A stretch of 64,000 nucleotides of DNA from Adlercreutzia sp. ZJ176 (GTDB lineage Bacteria > Actinomycetota > Coriobacteriia > Coriobacteriales > Eggerthellaceae), in NCBI RefSeq assembly GCF_011038975.1, contig NZ_JAAKEC010000011.1, forward strand, positions 1 through 64,000. The letters run 5' to 3'. The notes beneath the pieces were generated by a model. That model did not search any database and was not told the DNA's origin. It worked only from the letters and a program-made list of their open reading frames with translations. Position numbers and translations under genes: made by a program. Positions 54,155 through 64,000 of the stretch are shown here, in pieces (the stretch's first letter is position 1; the number at the start of each line of letters is the position of its first letter).

Positions 54155-54800
54155 TTGCCCTCAGAAGAGGCTCTTCTCCTTCACCTGTCAAACAAGGCTT
54201 CCTTCGACTGACCTAGTCTTTGCCCCCACACTCGCGCACCGGGGCTTCCGCTTGCGCTTAGAACCCTCTCGCCCGCCGCAGCCGAATGCCGCGAAGGTAG
54301 AACGGGCGGTGCGACTTACCCCTAGGATACGCCATGCTCACCGCCCGGGCACGCCCGCTCGGCTTACGTGGATCCTTTCGACCGCATCTGCCATGGACTG
54401 AGGAGCGAGCGCTCCCGCAACTACAGACTCGAAAGAAGCAATTTACTAGTGTAGCAGAAGCGGCGGGCTGTTTTCGCCGAGCGCGCCGCAGAAATACGCC
54501 AGCGAGAGGAAGGAAGCGCAGCGCGCGGGTGCGGGGCTGGTGCACGGGGGCATAGGGCGCGCCGCACGGATGCGGGGCTGGTGCGCGAGGCACGGGGAAC
54601 GAAAACATGCCGACGGCGCGGATGCGGAGCTGGTGCGCGGGTGTAGTGCGCGGGGCACGGGGAACGAAAACGCGCCGATAGCGCGGCGCGAAAAGAGCGG
54701 CGAAGACGCTCTCCTGTGCAGAGACGCGCGCCAAACCGGTGCGGCGGTTCTGCCAGGCTCTCGCCAGAAGCACGGGATACCCCTGCCAGACGGCGCCCCT
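54155..54800. other. 646-bp gap before comF with local repeats
   Basis: No supported gene. Bases 54531-54690 contain three copies of GGATGCGG(G/A)GCTGGTGC and two copies of GGGGCACGGGGAACGAAAAC followed by (A/G)(T/C)GCCGA. The comF frame stays open across this stretch, but the residues are Arg/Gly-rich and not conserved-looking. Confidence 0.45.
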
Positions 54801-55880: not shown

Positions 55881-56282
55881 ATGAAAAAGGTAGACCGTTA
55901 CTTCTTCCCCGCCGTGTTCACCTATGAGGAAGGCTGCGAGATCGCCGTGGAGTTCCCCGATCTGAACGTGGCGACCAGCGGCAGCGACGACGGTGACGCG
56001 CTGCTCTCCGCGCGCGAACTGCTCGGCTGCGTGCTCTTCGGCATGGAGGAGGACGGGGTGGCCATCCCCAACCCCACGCCGCTTCCCAACGTCAAGGTCG
56101 AAGAGGGCGAGCATACCGCGCTCGTCGACGTGTATATGCCCGCGGTGCGCCTCGCGCAGTCGAACAAGGCCGTGAACCGCACGGTTACCCTGCCCGCCTG
56201 GTTGAACTCGCTGGCCGTAGAGCGCGGCGTGAACTTCTCGCAAACCCTCCAAGGAGCCCTGCGCGAGCAGCTGCGAGCTTAG
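55881..56282 (+). CDS. hicB: HicB-type antitoxin
   Basis: A 133-residue antitoxin. The N-terminal domain with YFFPAVFTYEEGCEIAVEFP and LNVATSGSDDGDALLSAREL is the degenerate RNase H-like fold that covers HicA. The C-terminal RTVTLPAWLNSLAVERGVNF is a ribbon-helix-helix DNA-binding domain that would repress the hicA promoter. ATG 55881 follows AGGAGTG. Confidence 0.93.
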   Translation: MKKVDRYFFPAVFTYEEGCEIAVEFPDLNVATSGSDDGDALLSARELLGCVLFGMEEDGVAIPNPTPLPNVKVEEGEHTALVDVYMPAVRLAQSNKAVNRTVTLPAWLNSLAVERGVNFSQTLQGALREQLRA

Positions 56283-56461: not shown

Positions 56462-56491
56462 CTGACGACGCGGGTGCTGGGGTGCTACAAT
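56462..56491 (+). promoter_or_regulatory. promoter of putative antisense RNA
   Basis: CTGACG (56462-56467), 18-bp spacer, TACAAT (56486-56491). Start near 56498. The region from TACAAT to GCCAGCAAAGCCCG is mirrored on the minus strand at 56726-56751. Confidence 0.55.
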
Positions 56492-56497
56492 GCGGGT

Positions 56498-56584
56498 AGC
56501 CAGCAAAGCCCGTGTTGTAAAGCCGGTTACGGGCGGCGCGGGTGATTGGAACAAGAGCGGTAGTTGCCGCTACCGCTCCTTCTC
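56498..56584 (+). ncRNA. putative antisense RNA of a type I toxin-antitoxin module
   Basis: Predicted RNA of about 85 bases, starting at GCCAGCAAAG and ending at the hairpin GAGCGGTAG / CTACCGCTC (56555-56578), followed by CTTCTCCTT. It is transcribed towards the small peptide gene and overlaps its last codon and 3' region, the layout of TxpA/RatA-like modules. No ribosome site or frame suggests that it codes. Existence is predicted only. Confidence 0.5.
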
Positions 56585-56689
56585 CTTACCCTTGTCATCC
56601 GATCGTGAATTGCACTCTTTCCAAACGTCGAGGATGAACTCCCCGATGGCCGCAATGGCGGCCATGATGAAAAGCAGTTTTTCGATCAT
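56570..56689 (-). CDS. 39-residue membrane peptide, putative type I toxin
   Basis: Sequence begins MIEKLLFIMAAIAAIGEFIL and ends DVWKECNSRSDDKGKEKER: one membrane helix and a charged tail, as in small type I toxins. A perfect AAAGGAGGTG ribosome site lies about 9 bases before ATG 56689, strong evidence that it is translated. Its stop codon falls within the terminator hairpin of the opposing RNA. The 5' leader contains GCCAGCAAAGTCCG (56726-56739), which can pair with the mRNA's own 3' region (complement of 56499-56512). It lies beside hicAB. Alternative: a holin-like or regulatory small membrane protein. Confidence 0.6.
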   Translation of the reverse strand: MIEKLLFIMAAIAAIGEFILDVWKECNSRSDDKGKEKER

Positions 56690-56745
56690 AGGCGATCACC
56701 TCCTTTCAGAAGGCGCCGCCCACGTCGGACTTTGCTGGCATGCTG

Positions 56746-56751
56746 ATTGTA
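56746..56751 (-). promoter_or_regulatory. candidate -10 of the small peptide gene
   Basis: TACAAT on the minus strand, 57 bp before the ATG, in a mirror image of the antisense promoter. A TTGACG at 56766-56761 is only 9 bp upstream of it, so the true -35 is unclear. Confidence 0.4.
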
Positions 56752-56838
56752 CGGCGGTACGCGTCAAGCAGACCGTGAATCTTGGGCTATAAAAACTATC
56801 TATCCCGAAGTCCGGTTTCGCGCTTTTCGAATCAGCAT

Positions 56839-56878: not shown

Positions 56879-59800
56879 CTATCGCACGATGAAGGTGTAG
56901 AACACGTCGTCGTTTTCGCTACCGGCGGCAAAGGAGAACCGCACGCGATAGGTTCCTGGCTTGCCGGGAATCGCTGCGGTGACCGTAGCGGTGGCCATCT
57001 GGGAATTGTCCGCAGAGTCCGATGGCACTGTAACCACCTGAGGATTTTGCGCGCCTGAGGTAGACGAAACAAGAACTGGATCGAACTGCGCCAGAAGGCC
57101 GCTTTGTTTTTCCACCGTCACCGTGAAGGAAGCGGCGTTTGTCGTGCAATTGAATGATACCTCGTGCGACGTACCCGCCTTCAGCATGCGACTATCAGCC
57201 CCTTGACAGGTTACCGTCAAGCTTGGCTGATCGACAGAAGCCACTGTCAACGAGCTGGTTTCCGTATTGCTGCACACGCCGCGCATCATGTTGAGCGTTG
57301 CGAGCGCCGCACCGGGTGTCTCACCCGTCGCACCTGCTCCCGCATCCACCGTACCAGGCGCCTCACCTGCGCAGAGCTTCCATTCGATGCTGTACGTGCT
57401 TTCGGACGCACCCTCAGACAGTCCCTCGAAGGAGAAGGAGTACGCCCCCTTCGCAACGCTCCCATAGGTGCCCAGATTGAACGCCACCGTGTTGCCGTTG
57501 ATCCAGGTGCCGCTGACCTTAATGCTGGAACTCGACGGCGTCAAACTAGCTGACGCGTTAAGCGGAACCTTAAATGCCGAGGCGTCCTTCTTGCTCAACG
57601 TACCGACCAAATACACCGTCGAGTTGGTGAGGCGATCGTCGCCCGCAGGCGCAGTTTTCACCGTGACGTCGGTCGTAGTCGCCCCAATCTCGCCAAGCGT
57701 CACCGTGCTCACTGCGTAGCTCACCTGTGCAGTGGCACCAAAGTCGATGGAATTCGTAGAATCCCCTGCAATCAGCGAGAAAGCAACCGAACCACCCGCC
57801 GGGTTGACGTCCGTATTAAGCTCACCGAAATCGGCGCTGAGCAGGAATGTCTCGCTTTCCCCTATTGCGCGGTCAGTAAACACAGGAGAAGCTGTATCCG
57901 TAGTTCCCATCTTGGTGAACTGCGAGAACTTCACCGTATTCGCGCCCCCGGCAGGAACCGTGTAGTGGTAATATGCGTTTGGTGCAGTATTGGTATTGGG
58001 CTTAGCATTTTCCGCGGCAAGCACTGTAAGGGTAAGGTCAGTACCCTCAGGCAAGAAGCTACCGAACTTCACCTCATAGTCACGACCAGTTACATATGTG
58101 CCCTCGCTTACCAGCTGCGCCGTCCACGCGCCCCGCTGCGAAACCGAAACTTGTTTGTCCACGTAGCCGTTTTCGAAGCCCGTGAACACCCTACCGCTCT
58201 TGATCAACGCCGATCCCGTCGGGTTCACCCAAGCATGAACGGTGAGCGTCTTCGTGCCGTCAGCATCAGCAGCACTCATGTCCTTGGATGTGGTATCCGC
58301 CGAGAGCTGCGTCTTACCATGCAAGCCACTCGGCCAATTAGTATCTGCACGCAAGCCGAGCCGTTTTGAACCGTCTTCATTTGCAATATACCAACAATTG
58401 AATTTACTAGCGTCGCCGCCTTCTGTCGGATTCGTCGGGTCTGCTGGTATGGCGTCATGAACAGCAGGAGTTCCCGCCGTGCCATTGTCGCCATATTGCG
58501 TTTCGGTACGCAGCACAGTGGGCAGTGATTTACCGTTTTCATCTACAAGATTAAGCCTCAAGGTGCCCGTATCATAGGCGATACGGTAATGATCTTGCAC
58601 CAGGTTGCCAGTAATCTGCGGGTTGTTTTCCATGTTTACAAACGTAAAGGTGTTGTTCTGAGCCCCACACGCGCCGATGGTGGTCGCTGTAACGCTACCG
58701 CCGTTGATGGTGACCGTGGAAGCAGTGCTTGGAACAGGTGTTCCGTCGGCCCCTGTGGTCGCAGCGCCGCCGCCATTACTGCCAAGTTTGCCGTTTCCGC
58801 AGTTTGCCGTCACCTTGACCAGAGTCATGTTCCCCTTGGCTACAACGTCGGCGTTACCAGCAGGGTCTCCATCAACTCCTGCAGTAAGAGTTCCTCCCGT
58901 TTGGGCGTAATTTCCATCGCCGGATAGGCCCTTTTGATATGTTATGCCATAGCCGTTTTCGCCGCTTGCATTATCTTTGTCTGGAACGGGTTTGCTCTCA
59001 ACCGTGAGCGTCTTGCCCGCCACAACAGAAGCCGCGTCTGTCACCACCAAGTTGCCGCTCAAAACCATCTTCACATCATCGTTGATAGTCAGCGCCCCAA
59101 TGGTCACGTTTTTCGGGAGCGCTGTCGTACCATCCGTACTCGATACCTGCTCCGGTTGCTGCACCGTAATCGTCTTGCCCTCGCCCAGGCTAGTCACCGT
59201 TAAGGACGGCGGCGTAGCAGGAAGACCCTTTTCCTCCAGTAACAGGTAGTTCAAATGCAAGCTGCCACGGTCATGAACAACTTCAGCCTTGGTACTCGAA
59301 TAAACCTGAGTGACCTTAGACGTCTCAACCTTAATATCGCCATTGGCGACCTCGATAATCTGGGTGCCATCGATGGTCACATCGGAAGCAATATCCTCTA
59401 GCACCATCTGTCCGGTAAAGAGCTTATTGGTTTTACCACTGTTGACGTAGGCAACCTGCACGGTGCTGCTTGTAATTGTATTGGCTTCATCGTCAACATT
59501 GCTCGTGATTGTGGTGACTCCACCATCCGTACCGATCATGGAGACATCACCGAGATCATATTCGTTCTGCAGATATATATTGCAGCCTGCGATGTTCAAC
59601 GTACTTGCTGCGTGAATTGGCTCTTTTACCGGATTATCACTCGTGCCAATCGCACAATTCTTCAAAGACACCAAAGTGCCATCTAGTGCTTTCGCATTAT
59701 GATTTGAGCTTCCTTCGGTTTCCGCAACGACCGTATTAGTCACGCTGACATTCCCCACACCAGCGCCACCGATCCATGCACCTTTGTACTGGCCGGATGC

Positions 59801-62800
59801 GTTCGTGCTTTCCTTTACGGCTATTCGGCTGTTGGTTATTGACACATTGCCGTATGAGTTTGCCCCTTCAGCGGGCGCTTGATTCCCAGAACCAATACCC
59901 GAAGAACTCAACGGAGCATTCAATTCCATCGACACATCAACCTTCTCCAAGGTGATGCCACCGTTCGCAGGATTCGTCTCAATAGCACCAATTGCAGCTC
60001 GATCTGATGTCGGTGCGAGCGTAATGGTCTTGTTTTGTGCGGCATCGCTTGCGTTATAACCACCCGTCAACGTTAGGCTCGTATTTGTCGGTACCAGAAT
60101 ATTCTTTGCCTTAATATTGCCTATCTGTGTCAGGTTGACCTTCGTGGTGGCATCACCTGCACCTGCCAACTGAATTGAATCCTCACTTGTAATGTTCAAG
60201 TTACCCAAACTAATTGTGCGCCCTACAGGGTTTCCTTCGCTATCAGCTTTATTATCGGAGCGCGTGGTCATATCGCCCGAAATCTCTAGCACGTTCGGAG
60301 TTTCGTGGAAGTCGCTATTGTCGCCCGCACACTGCAAGATCTTATAGTCGCCGCGCCACGTAACCTTCGACTCGTATTTGCCCTTCTGCGTAAACCCATC
60401 AGGGAACAACTCGATGGAACCTTCGTCCAAATACAACTCCATGACGTCGTCGTAACTGATGGCCACGTTGCGGGCAGGCATTGCGAACGTATAGTCATTG
60501 CCCACCTTCTGCGCGAACTCATCAAGGCGCTTCGTCTCTATGACCGTACCGCTGTCTGGATCCTTAAACGTTAGCGTAATGAATTCCGCAGGCTGACTTG
60601 AGGGATTCGGCTTAAACGTAACCGTTGAATGATACTTCACATTTGACGAAGTATCGCTCAAGGCGACATCACCGGTCGGAGTCGTATCAGCCGCACCATC
60701 TCCGTAGGTAATGTCCCATTTACCGCCCACAGTCGTATCTTTTTCGAGGGTATACTTTTTCGGCGCATATTCAGCAGAAACTGTTATCATGCCATCGTTC
60801 AGTTCTGCCTCTCTCGCGGCTGAGGTCGAGCCCAAACCATCCAGCGTCAACTGTGTCAGCGACAACGGCGACAAAGCGGCACCAGACGTGCTAGAAGGCG
60901 TATAACTCCAATTTGCTGCTCGGTCATAGCCCTCAAGTGCGAGCGTAGCATCTGTCGACAGTAAATTAGTTCCGTAATTCTGCGTGTCAACGCGGTGATA
61001 GACTCGCACATTCGCGTCGACCCCTGAGCCGATACCGGCGTCGGCCCCTGAGCCGGCACCCTCGCCTGCGCCCAGCGGCTTAAAGTCTTTGGGTGCCGAT
61101 TGCGGCTGAATCAACTTCAGGTCTTCTGCTGGTTCTGGCAAAATCACCCGATAATCAACCTTATATTGAGAAGGGTTCAGCTTCACTGTGACATTCTCTT
61201 GCAGCCACTGGCTCTCCAAGGGGTTTTCCCCCGAGGATGAGCCTGCTTTGGCGAAGGTATATTTAATGACAAAGGAGTATTCTTTCTGTTCGGTCATGAC
61301 CTTTGAATGGTAGAGCGACAGGGTAAGATTCCAGCCCTTCCCTATAGCTTGACTTCCAACATCCCGCTCAGCCCCTGCCGTCACGCTAGCTGTGATGGGA
61401 GACACGTCACCTTTTTCCAACTTCAACTCAAGAGCAACGGTATCATTTGCGGTGTGCTCCACACGGTCGCTCGACGTCCATGTGCTGTCGTACTGATGCG
61501 CCACCATGTCGTCTTTGCTCACCAACTTTAAATCGCCCGTGTAGGCAGAACCAGCCGGATCCGCATTCAGCACCTGATATCTCAGTGTTCCTTCCTGCAT
61601 ACTACCTGGCAACACATAGGAAGCACTGGGTGGATTAGTCGCTGTAGGATCGGCGTTGGCTACCAGCACTTGTTTGATAGTTTGCCGTGCCACATAGGCG
61701 GTATAGACGTTAATGTCATAAGTTTGAGTACTAGTAAACTTATTTTTCCAATCATCAATCTTCTGTTGGAAGATTGCATCGTCGTTCGGATACGCATTTG
61801 CCGAGTTAATATCACTCGAGCCCACGAACCAGCCCACCAAGGCATACCCCTTGCCCGGAGCAGTCAATACTCTGTAGTTTCCCGCCTCGTCGGTTAGGTA
61901 TATTTCGGGATAATTCGTGTACTGGTTCCAAGGATAGGAGTACATGACTTTTTCCCGCATCAAGCCCTCACCGTCTACGTATCGCTCGATGAACACCAAA
62001 GAACGCTCGCGATACACGCCGTACATAGGGATAGTGGTGCCGGTTGGATAGTCGGGCACCTCGAAGGAATCAGAAGACGTCGCACTTACGGTAGCACCCC
62101 GTATGTTATCTTGATATTTTTTGTTCTCAGGCAGGAAGAAAACATCACCGTTGTCGAACATAGTTTTGCTGTTAAGCATGCGCGTGACCGCGCTCGCGTA
62201 TCCGAGATAACAACTCCCTGAATCTGTTCGCGTACTATTGCCCGGGTCAAGTGCAGCAAAGGTCATCCCTAGCAAGAGACGACGTTCATCCTCGTCAGCG
62301 GTGTTGGCATCTGGGTTATGAGCGTACCACTCATTCTTGCTCGGCCAGGTGTTCTCAGGAATAGAGCCTGTAACTTGTTCAGGCCAAGTGTTCGCGCTAA
62401 TGGGCTGTCCTACCATGACACCCGTAATAGTTGCAGTGTCGGGCGACGGATTATTGAACTGCGACTCATATGAATTAAAGCCCGCGTCCTTCACATGGAG
62501 CTCAAGGCTGTAGGTGTTCGGTACCCACTCCGCCTTCAAGCTGAGATCATTGAAACGCGGAACGCAACCGTAGTACTCGGCGATGCTTCCGGTGCCCCCG
62601 GCATCTCCAGTGCCGCCAGCGTCCCCTGAGCCTCCAGCATCTCCGGTGTCGCCAGCGCCCTCGGAACCTCCCGGTTCACTCGTGCTACCGTTTACGCGCT
62701 TCCAGCCTTTGAAGGTATAGCCTTTGCGAGACAAAGTATTGCGATAGTCGTTAGGGACGTACTCCTTGGAGTGCTGCTCATAATAAACGCTCGTAGTGCT

Positions 62801-64000
62801 GATTGCGCAATACTTTTCGTTTCTCTCGCCTGTAGCTTGACCCAGCTTGACATAGTCGTTGTTCTCGGTCAGATTATTGTCGATCTTGCTCTCTTCGACA
62901 TACCCGGCAAGCGCGTTGCCATATGCCGGATTCTCTGACGGCTCATCCGCTTTCCACGTGCCGCCATTCAAATCATACGTGACTTTTACCGGGCTATAAT
63001 TTGCGTACAGCGTTAAAGCCGGTGTGTCGCCTTTCTCGCTGCCCACATAGTTGTCCACCTTCAAGTTCTTCATCACAGCCTGACTCAATTCGTCTTCACT
63101 GGCAACAGTATGACTCACTCCCTCATCGTCAGTGAACTGCCAGTTCTTGAATACGTAGCCTTCTCGCCATGCAGAGGGAAGTGTATCCTTATATACCCTA
63201 CTGCCCGCGCCTTCTGAAGCCTCTTCTTTTATCCAGAAATTATTGTTGTCTGCATCTGGCGCAGTATCGTAAGTCCAGAAATAATCAAGTGTGTTGTTCG
63301 TGGTCGAATTCACGCGCGGAGCAGTTTTATCCGTTGTCACCCATTGATTGCCCGTGTAAGCAGGCTCTTCTTTTGCACCTGTCGCTGCGCTGAACTGAAC
63401 CTGGTAAGTGTTTGGCGTCCATTTGGCATAGAGCGTGGTTTTGCCCTCAATGCGCAAATCCTCCAAAGCCGTAGTGCCAGTAACGGGATCGCCCGTGCAG
63501 TCACTATCTGTGTACCAACCACCAAAAGTGTAACCCGGCGCAGTTGGCTTAATCAGTCCATCGGTAGCAGATGCTCCCGCAAATGCACTTATGTCACCCA
63601 AGGTTTTTGTGATGTTCCCGTATGCACTGACTTGCGAAGCCGTATCGCTACCAGAGTTCATCGGTTTACCTGGCACAAGATTAAACTTCGTGTCATCAGG
63701 ATGTCCCTCAGCGTTTATGTTCTGATTCAAGGTTATCAGAACATTCAACGGGGCCGTACTACTCGATGGCACCTTAAGAACGAGAGCAGTTCCGCCTGTC
63801 ACGTATTCATTTGCCATCTCCGCCGTTACGCGCGTATTGGGAACAACCGTACCTGGCTTTTCCTGTCCAATAGGCTTATCGTTGTAGAAAACCGCCTGAA
63901 TACTCAAGGTGTTGGTGGTGTAATCGGCAAAACGAAGTCCGTTATCCGAAATGATTAGGTCGTCGTAGTCGACTTCCACGGGTTTTTTAAACCTATACCA
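56879..64000 (-). CDS. giant repeat surface protein, N-terminus beyond the window
   Basis: More than 2370 residues; the frame is open to the window edge. The N-terminal third visible here has InlB B-repeat (Flg_new) units: YTFGGWYTDSDCTGDPVTGT with LYAKWTPNTYQVQFS, YVFKNWQFTDDEGV and YTFKGWKRVNGS. A Gly/Asp/Ala/Thr linker of GDAGG(T/S)-type repeats lies near 62580-62670. The middle, about 58.6-60.3 kb, has parallel beta-helix-like blocks (SLGNLNITSEDSIQLAGAGD, NYAQTGGTLTAGVDGDPAGN). The C-terminal part has Ig-like segments ending in DVFYTFIVR, with no sortase motif or membrane anchor. Probably exported adhesin. Less GC-rich than the core genes, which suggests acquisition. Confidence 0.85.
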   Translation of the reverse strand, partial: WYRFKKPVEVDYDDLIISDNGLRFADYTTNTLSIQAVFYNDKPIGQEKPGTVVPNTRVTAEMANEYVTGGTALVLKVPSSSTAPLNVLITLNQNINAEGHPDDTKFNLVPGKPMNSGSDTASQVSAYGNITKTLGDISAFAGASATDGLIKPTAPGYTFGGWYTDSDCTGDPVTGTTALEDLRIEGKTTLYAKWTPNTYQVQFSAATGAKEEPAYTGNQWVTTDKTAPRVNSTTNNTLDYFWTYDTAPDADNNNFWIKEEASEGAGSRVYKDTLPSAWREGYVFKNWQFTDDEGVSHTVASEDELSQAVMKNLKVDNYVGSEKGDTPALTLYANYSPVKVTYDLNGGTWKADEPSENPAYGNALAGYVEESKIDNNLTENNDYVKLGQATGERNEKYCAISTTSVYYEQHSKEYVPNDYRNTLSRKGYTFKGWKRVNGSTSEPGGSEGAGDTGDAGGSGDAGGTGDAGGTGSIAEYYGCVPRFNDLSLKAEWVPNTYSLELHVKDAGFNSYESQFNNPSPDTATITGVMVGQPISANTWPEQVTGSIPENTWPSKNEWYAHNPDANTADEDERRLLLGMTFAALDPGNSTRTDSGSCYLGYASAVTRMLNSKTMFDNGDVFFLPENKKYQDNIRGATVSATSSDSFEVPDYPTGTTIPMYGVYRERSLVFIERYVDGEGLMREKVMYSYPWNQYTNYPEIYLTDEAGNYRVLTAPGKGYALVGWFVGSSDINSANAYPNDDAIFQQKIDDWKNKFTSTQTYDINVYTAYVARQTIKQVLVANADPTATNPPSASYVLPGSMQEGTLRYQVLNADPAGSAYTGDLKLVSKDDMVAHQYDSTWTSSDRVEHTANDTVALELKLEKGDVSPITASVTAGAERDVGSQAIGKGWNLTLSLYHSKVMTEQKEYSFVIKYTFAKAGSSSGENPLESQWLQENVTVKLNPSQYKVDYRVILPEPAEDLKLIQPQSAPKDFKPLGAGEGAGSGADAGIGSGVDANVRVYHRVDTQNYGTNLLSTDATLALEGYDRAANWSYTPSSTSGAALSPLSLTQLTLDGLGSTSAAREAELNDGMITVSAEYAPKKYTLEKDTTVGGKWDITYGDGAADTTPTGDVALSDTSSNVKYHSTVTFKPNPSSQPAEFITLTFKDPDSGTVIETKRLDEFAQKVGNDYTFAMPARNVAISYDDVMELYLDEGSIELFPDGFTQKGKYESKVTWRGDYKILQCAGDNSDFHETPNVLEISGDMTTRSDNKADSEGNPVGRTISLGNLNITSEDSIQLAGAGDATTKVNLTQIGNIKAKNILVPTNTSLTLTGGYNASDAAQNKTITLAPTSDRAAIGAIETNPANGGITLEKVDVSMELNAPLSSSGIGSGNQAPAEGANSYGNVSITNSRIAVKESTNASGQYKGAWIGGAGVGNVSVTNTVVAETEGSSNHNAKALDGTLVSLKNCAIGTSDNPVKEPIHAASTLNIAGCNIYLQNEYDLGDVSMIGTDGGVTTITSNVDDEANTITSSTVQVAYVNSGKTNKLFTGQMVLEDIASDVTIDGTQIIEVANGDIKVETSKVTQVYSSTKAEVVHDRGSLHLNYLLLEEKGLPATPPSLTVTSLGEGKTITVQQPEQVSSTDGTTALPKNVTIGALTINDDVKMVLSGNLVVTDAASVVAGKTLTVESKPVPDKDNASGENGYGITYQKGLSGDGNYAQTGGTLTAGVDGDPAGNADVVAKGNMTLVKVTANCGNGKLGSNGGGAATTGADGTPVPSTASTVTINGGSVTATTIGACGAQNNTFTFVNMENNPQITGNLVQDHYRIAYDTGTLRLNLVDENGKSLPTVLRTETQYGDNGTAGTPAVHDAIPADPTNPTEGGDASKFNCWYIANEDGSKRLGLRADTNWPSGLHGKTQLSADTTSKDMSAADADGTKTLTVHAWVNPTGSALIKSGRVFTGFENGYVDKQVSVSQRGAWTAQLVSEGTYVTGRDYEVKFGSFLPEGTDLTLTVLAAENAKPNTNTAPNAYYHYTVPAGGANTVKFSQFTKMGTTDTASPVFTDRAIGESETFLLSADFGELNTDVNPAGGSVAFSLIAGDSTNSIDFGATAQVSYAVSTVTLGEIGATTTDVTVKTAPAGDDRLTNSTVYLVGTLSKKDASAFKVPLNASASLTPSSSSIKVSGTWINGNTVAFNLGTYGSVAKGAYSFSFEGLSEGASESTYSIEWKLCAGEAPGTVDAGAGATGETPGAALATLNMMRGVCSNTETSSLTVASVDQPSLTVTCQGADSRMLKAGTSHEVSFNCTTNAASFTVTVEKQSGLLAQFDPVLVSSTSGAQNPQVVTVPSDSADNSQMATATVTAAIPGKPGTYRVRFSFAAGSENDDVFYTFIVR

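Follow-up and report, generated by a model that had tools for sequence, protein, structure and literature searches.

The window (the whole 64,000-nt stretch of Adlercreutzia sp. ZJ176 DNA that was analyzed) contains what is probably a type I toxin-antitoxin module, a member of a family that, judging from sequence comparisons, has been found so far only in the Coriobacteriia. The best reading is that this family is new to the Actinomycetota and would combine end closure of the putative toxin mRNA, similar to that of hok and AapA1, with an antisense RNA against the mRNA 3' end, similar to that of TxpA/RatA. The apparent new point is that the 5' end of the antitoxin copies the 5' end of the mRNA, and therefore can compete for the mRNA 3' end. 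The arrangement is more than chance, as the full-length mRNA folds into a closed structure (-116 kcal/mol, z = -7.2), the layout recurs at dozens of loci, and the covariation between its parts is locus-specific. Until the first cyanobacterial case in 2025, type I systems had been reported only from Proteobacteria, Firmicutes, and Tenericutes (PMC12390103). The first-pass annotation of this DNA had considered the module probably new for its bacterial group, and the literature searched here (open-licence papers) holds no description of type I systems in the Coriobacteriia. The family would be a large type I group in the Actinomycetota, present in common gut genera.

The peptide, ribosome site, convergent promoter, and mirrored ends that the first-pass annotation had described were each found where it had placed them. 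The putative toxin gene (56570-56689, - strand) is an open reading frame predicted to encode the 39-aa membrane peptide MIEKLLFIMAAIAAIGEFILDVWKECNSRSDDKGKEKER; it is preceded by the Shine-Dalgarno (SD) region AAAGGAGGTGATC, in which GGAGG (56699-56703, -) lies 9 nt before the ATG. The leader of the peptide mRNA (56691-56723, -) consists of GTGGGCGGCGCC, the anti-SD CCUUC, a loop, the SD AAAGGAGGTGAT, and CGCC, and is predicted to form a hairpin that sequesters the SD. Upstream of the leader are the mRNA 5' arm GCCAGCAAAGTCCG (56726-56739, -) and the peptide promoter, which has a TACAAT -10 box (56746-56751, -) and no good -35. On the opposite strand, the sRNA promoter (56462-56491, +) reads CTGACG-18 nt-TACAAT with a TG one base before the -10, forming the extended -10 TGCTACAAT (56483-56491, +). 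Because a simple consensus scan finds the sRNA promoter and misses the peptide promoter at this locus, the peptide promoter appears to be the weaker one; across the family, a TGn-extended -10 is present in 38 of 68 sRNA promoters versus 29 of 68 peptide promoters.

The predicted antitoxin sRNA (56499 to ~56587, +; covariance model R1, 78.6 bits; folding z = -3.0) comprises a 5' arm, a 5' hairpin, a linker, and a terminator, and its length of ~89 nt corrects an earlier estimate of ~85 bases. The sRNA 5' arm GCCAGCAAAGCCCG (56499-56512, +), the complement of which is the 3' arm of the peptide mRNA, covaries with 56726-56739, and the closing side of the 5' hairpin is ACGGGCGGCGC (56529-56539, +), a motif that recurs in the mRNA leader. 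The intrinsic terminator hairpin at 56555-56578 (+) is followed by a T-rich run (56579-56587) and contains the peptide stop codon (56570-56572, -), confirming the earlier description of a short predicted RNA that ends in such a hairpin. The two arms constitute a 14-nt inverted repeat with a single T/C difference and with TACAAT before each copy; folding and covariation predict a full-length peptide mRNA of at least 241 nt (56499-56739, -) with a 14-bp 5'-3' closing stem. An identical local 5' hairpin with a conserved internal loop (GC-AAA-GYCCG...CGGGC-GGC-GC) can be drawn in both RNAs (56499-56539 and 56712-56739), where it is possibly a metastable fold of the nascent mRNA or a stability element.

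A DNA search identified further copies with the same layout and differing peptides, both in the window's genome (2.72 Mb in 49 contigs; genome G000 of the survey) and in relatives. The family anatomy consists of two convergent -10 boxes with matching 5' arms, an SD hairpin, a membrane peptide of 31-48 aa, and an sRNA terminator lying over the stop codon. The first-pass annotation had proposed searching relatives with the 39-residue sequence and the mirrored ends, and had counted the absence of these ends and of the opposing promoter from homologues against a module; this outcome did not arise. A covariance model of the sRNA half matched 65 of 298 Coriobacteriia genomes, representing 30 of 125 genera, with up to five copies per genome (five in the window's genome), and a separate sequence model of the mRNA leader matched 67 of the 298. 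Hosts that could be named are, among others, Adlercreutzia, Enterorhabdus, Gordonibacter sp. 28C, Collinsella ihumii, C. tanakaei, and Atopobiaceae MAGs; Gordonibacter sp. 28C, which is transformable (PMC9734109), has a single copy (L030/L226). When 396 genomes were drawn from across the phylum, matches were confined to genomes of the window's own order, while exact-pattern matches in other phyla yielded no convincing paired elements among the matches listed. Rfam contained no match to the element at the gathering score, merely chance matches below it. Some family peptides look unrelated to one another (e.g., MLKEILNFVLYGLPAWVAAVASLLPLLLGRRKNK), and the covariance models make the family findable although its peptides are too short and varied for protein searches. 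Tandem elements or extra sRNA halves side by side were observed at four loci (L042, L037, L112, and L081) in Coriobacteriaceae/Atopobiaceae and Eggerthellaceae MAGs.

The evidence for end closure comes from 68 non-redundant paired elements, in each of which the arm of the mRNA was set against that of its own locus's sRNA over 12 positions (816 cells); the mRNA arms were located by a general profile and not by resemblance to the partner arm. The majority of cells (745) were Watson-Crick, followed by those that were G.U-compatible on the mRNA strand (58), then those that were G.U-compatible on the sRNA strand (4), with nine other cells. This amounts to 803 of 816 cells paired; the 13 unpaired cells compare to a mean of 78 when partners were shuffled among loci (minimum 65 of 1000) and to 67 under the assumption that the RNA is the sRNA strand. 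A second count by an independent tool on 63 sequences found 129 both-sided cell changes versus 39 in shuffles. The covariation score of the arms in 63 sequences was 0.393 compared to 0.209 when shuffled, 92% of arm cells were paired in register compared to 30-46% when the arms were slid, and one arm position was U.G in all 63. In a tree of the inner regions, both sides changed together 38 times across nine positions of the arms, in 37 cases to a matched pair, with G.U intermediates. Diverged variants still match across quite different arm sequence (GCCGCGGAATCCGC/GCCGCGGAACCCGC and CCGGCGGTGTCC/CCGGCGGTGCCC), each arm matches its own-locus partner among copies within one genome, including the window's genome, and 66 of 68 family members are predicted to fold with their arms paired. 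The second helix, formed by CGGGCGGCGC and its complement, varies too little for covariation, and its signal was not above that of shuffles.

Since the covariation is both locus-specific and strand-specific, it points to selection on a 5'-3' stem in the peptide mRNA, and not on repeated DNA ends or a protein site common to both. On this comparative evidence, an RNA stem that joins both ends of a peptide mRNA reading through the whole sRNA gene is kept by selection, and the 3' end of this predicted mRNA is shown to be the complement of the first 14-16 nt of the sRNA. The earlier proposal that the mRNA folds its 5' end onto its own 3' end was thus borne out by strong strand-specific covariation, and complementarity of the sRNA to the mRNA 3' end likewise upholds the suggestion of a TxpA/RatA-like antisense RNA. 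It is very improbable that the arms are instead the terminal inverted repeats of a small mobile (MITE-like) element, or a DNA cruciform, with the peptide and promoters as passengers. Inverted ends, several copies per genome, and intergenic positions would suit such an element; however, a 58:4 strand bias of G.U-type differences would not be expected for DNA ends, and neither would a T/C difference that never varies or -10 boxes placed regularly just outside the arms. The plasmid and phage collections contained no DNA match to the element, and the single pattern match in IMG/VR was a chance one, without a -10 and without a partner. Mobile DNA ends were rejected on the strand-specific G.U bias. 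A comparably slim chance is given to the explanation that a single host factor recognizes both 5' arms, as binding sites or stability hairpins, and that they match each other through this recognition in trans. Both RNAs can indeed adopt one and the same 5' hairpin, with an AAA/GGC internal loop, but the arms differ between copies in a genome and match only their own-locus partners, and the matching extends upstream of the hairpin, to about +1.

For the mRNA to include its 3' arm, transcription has to pass the hairpin that the two genes share. In 29 of the 68 elements, the 9 nt after this hairpin on the sRNA strand include at least 5 T; on the mRNA strand this is so in none, and with no such T-run in the family the mRNA would be expected to continue past the hairpin. 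The sRNA terminator stem covaries among relatives. In five Atopobiaceae-type elements (L037, L053, L060, L113, and L169), a strong terminator, placed within the sRNA promoter, follows the 3' arm at a distance of 14-15 nt, and therefore the mRNA should span the 3' arm in these elements. A terminator at this place was rejected as a general feature of the family, with 13 found versus 12.4 expected and most sub-groups having none above chance; because the family-wide count is at chance level, only the five strong terminators of the one sub-group are used as evidence. The sRNA terminator loop (56564-56569 in the window) is mostly of the TGCC or TGCA type family-wide while the stems vary freely, and it is a candidate seed for loop-loop contact.

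The peptide gene is under protein-level selection, as judged from substitution patterns: pN was lower than pS in 61 of 62 homologous peptide pairs (median pN/pS 0.43), and the four closest pairs ranged from 0.02/0.36 to 0.08/0.42, which indicates strong purifying selection. Family peptides have a single hydrophobic stretch and a charged tail. The window peptide belongs to no Pfam or NCBIfam family, and none of 25 family members had a significant match to NCBIfam or Pfam, the best type I toxin model reaching E 0.023 with one member. Fst, Hol_Tox, and the other catalogued type I toxin peptides were rejected as assignments, no curated profile having matched. Peptide selection and RNA covariation by themselves do not imply toxicity, and the peptide could be a small, non-toxic regulatory membrane peptide whose control by a convergent antisense RNA involves identical RNA folding. 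This explanation is considered improbable, since the multiple divergent copies per genome, the patchy spread, the antitoxin-side relics, and the duplicated sRNA fit a toxin better.

The relics are unevenly distributed between the two halves of the element. Of 101 strong sRNA matches, 28 were without a leader match; at least 12 of these had lost the leader and the N-terminal half of the peptide, a few had intact but diverged peptides, and some were at contig ends. Conversely, only 6 of 76 strong leader matches were without an sRNA match, five of which proved to have a diverged sRNA half with matching arms, while the sixth was split by an insertion. One weak leader match (L288) has a peptide without an sRNA half, and at another locus (L230, G049:C5:5607-5834) two tandem sRNA halves, 149 nt apart, face one peptide gene. 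In degraded loci the peptide half is thus typically lost while the sRNA half survives, as would be expected of a harmful peptide and a protective RNA; the support that this gives to the toxin-antitoxin reading is indirect. Among other odd loci, a diverged sRNA half without a peptide gene is found in a 3,632,260-bp genome (L271, G117:C1:3325260-3325880), and another genome of the same genus, G032, carries an intact element (L285). Two further loci in one genome (L284 and L206, G305) are apparently one element split over two contig ends, with CACACTTTTTGAG-type sequence at both break points, which suggests an insertion element inside the peptide gene.

The closed mRNA had been likened to the long-lived, locked mRNA of hok. 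End closure holds up as a structure. The hok-like lock has partial support only: folding does not back the idea that closure blocks translation, which is doubtful, because the SD is predicted to be hidden by a local hairpin and not through end closure. The leader hairpin is conserved, with some covariation, and in folding predictions the median unpaired probability of the SD is 0.21 in the closed form and 0.006 without the 3' end. The SD is therefore predicted to be occluded with or without the 3' end, the removal of which fails to open it; it is slightly more open when the mRNA is closed. Within the toxin-antitoxin reading, it is possible, though rather unlikely, that closure activates the mRNA, with pairing between the leader and the 3' end loosening the SD hairpin, and that the sRNA removes the 3' end and thereby turns translation off. 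The slightly more open SD of the closed form and the identity of the sRNA and mRNA 5' ends are in keeping with this; however, the effect is small and a thermodynamic prediction only, and hok and AapA1 work the opposite way (PMC8167048).

In the mechanism proposed for the toxin-antitoxin module, the peptide would act as a membrane toxin. Its mRNA would be transcribed through the sRNA gene, since the shared hairpin is expected to terminate only the sRNA strand, and then presumably be trimmed to the closing stem, where end-to-end closure should protect both ends while the SD would stay hidden in the leader hairpin until the mRNA is remodelled or processed. The sRNA, which has the stronger promoter, would pair with the mRNA over its 3' third, with the complementary terminator loops as the probable starting point, and its 5' end may displace the mRNA 5' end from the closing stem, because the sRNA pairs perfectly where the mRNA has the invariant U.G. 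The resulting long sRNA-mRNA duplex would probably be an RNase III substrate, and once sRNA synthesis stops, surviving mRNA would be translated. That the antitoxin is a copy of the toxin mRNA 5' end acting by strand displacement, with U.G in the mRNA versus C-G with the sRNA setting the direction, is put forward tentatively, at somewhat less than even chances. If true, strand displacement would be a form of type I control distinct from 5' antisense pairing, SD occlusion, and direct-repeat pairing.

Compared to known systems (features of hok, AapA1, Fst, and TxpA taken from PMC8167048), the Coriobacteriia family shares individual parts with each. As in hok/Sok of the E. coli R1 plasmid, there is a small membrane peptide, pairing between the mRNA 5' and 3' ends, and a full-length mRNA proposed to be inactive; in contrast, the antisense pairing of Sok is with the 5' (mok) region and that of the Coriobacteriia sRNA with the 3' end including the closing arm, the peptide is unrelated, and the SD is hidden locally. 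Membership in the hok/Sok family was rejected because the sRNA is complementary to the 3' end and not to a 5' leader or mok frame. AapA1/IsoA1 of Helicobacter pylori also has a long-distance 5'-3' interaction in the toxin mRNA, but in that system the interaction is what hides the SD, and kissing loops mediate antitoxin binding (PMC8167048); the Coriobacteriia stem instead ties together the two outermost ends, and the sRNA repeats the 5' arm. With TxpA/RatA of Bacillus subtilis, the family shares convergent genes overlapping at their 3' ends and an extensive 3' duplex; however, no mirrored 5' ends are described for TxpA/RatA (PMC8167048), and the Coriobacteriia peptide is unrelated.

The par/Fst system of Enterococcus (RNAI-RNAII) similarly has convergent RNAs that meet at a shared hairpin, repeats at both 5' ends, and a transmembrane peptide of 30-40 aa with a charged tail. 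The Fst repeats are direct, making the 5' ends mutually complementary, whereas the Coriobacteriia repeats are inverted and the 5' ends have the same sequence; in addition, the Fst terminator is bidirectional, while the Coriobacteriia hairpin carries its T-run on just one strand, that of the sRNA. Membership in the Fst/par family was rejected on the inverted repeats and the count of 0/68 for an mRNA-strand T-run. The inverted-repeat design mirrors the Fst design and would offer a clean, testable case of an antitoxin mimicking its target.

The first-pass annotation had also placed the element next to hicAB. A hicA gene does adjoin it (Pfam HicA_toxin, 3e-22), but the following open reading frame, at the hicB position (55881-56282, +), has no Pfam match at 0.001 and is possibly a diverged HicB-type antitoxin. 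Because the flanks examined around the other copies of the element (up to ~1.5 kb) contained no hicAB, it is regarded as an incidental neighbour and not part of the system. Elsewhere in the window, a raiA RNA is located at 54199-54437 (-; Rfam RF03072, 145 bits), and an open frame at 56879-63979 (-) of 2366 aa, rich in GYTFGGWYTD-like repeats, likely encodes a large surface protein.
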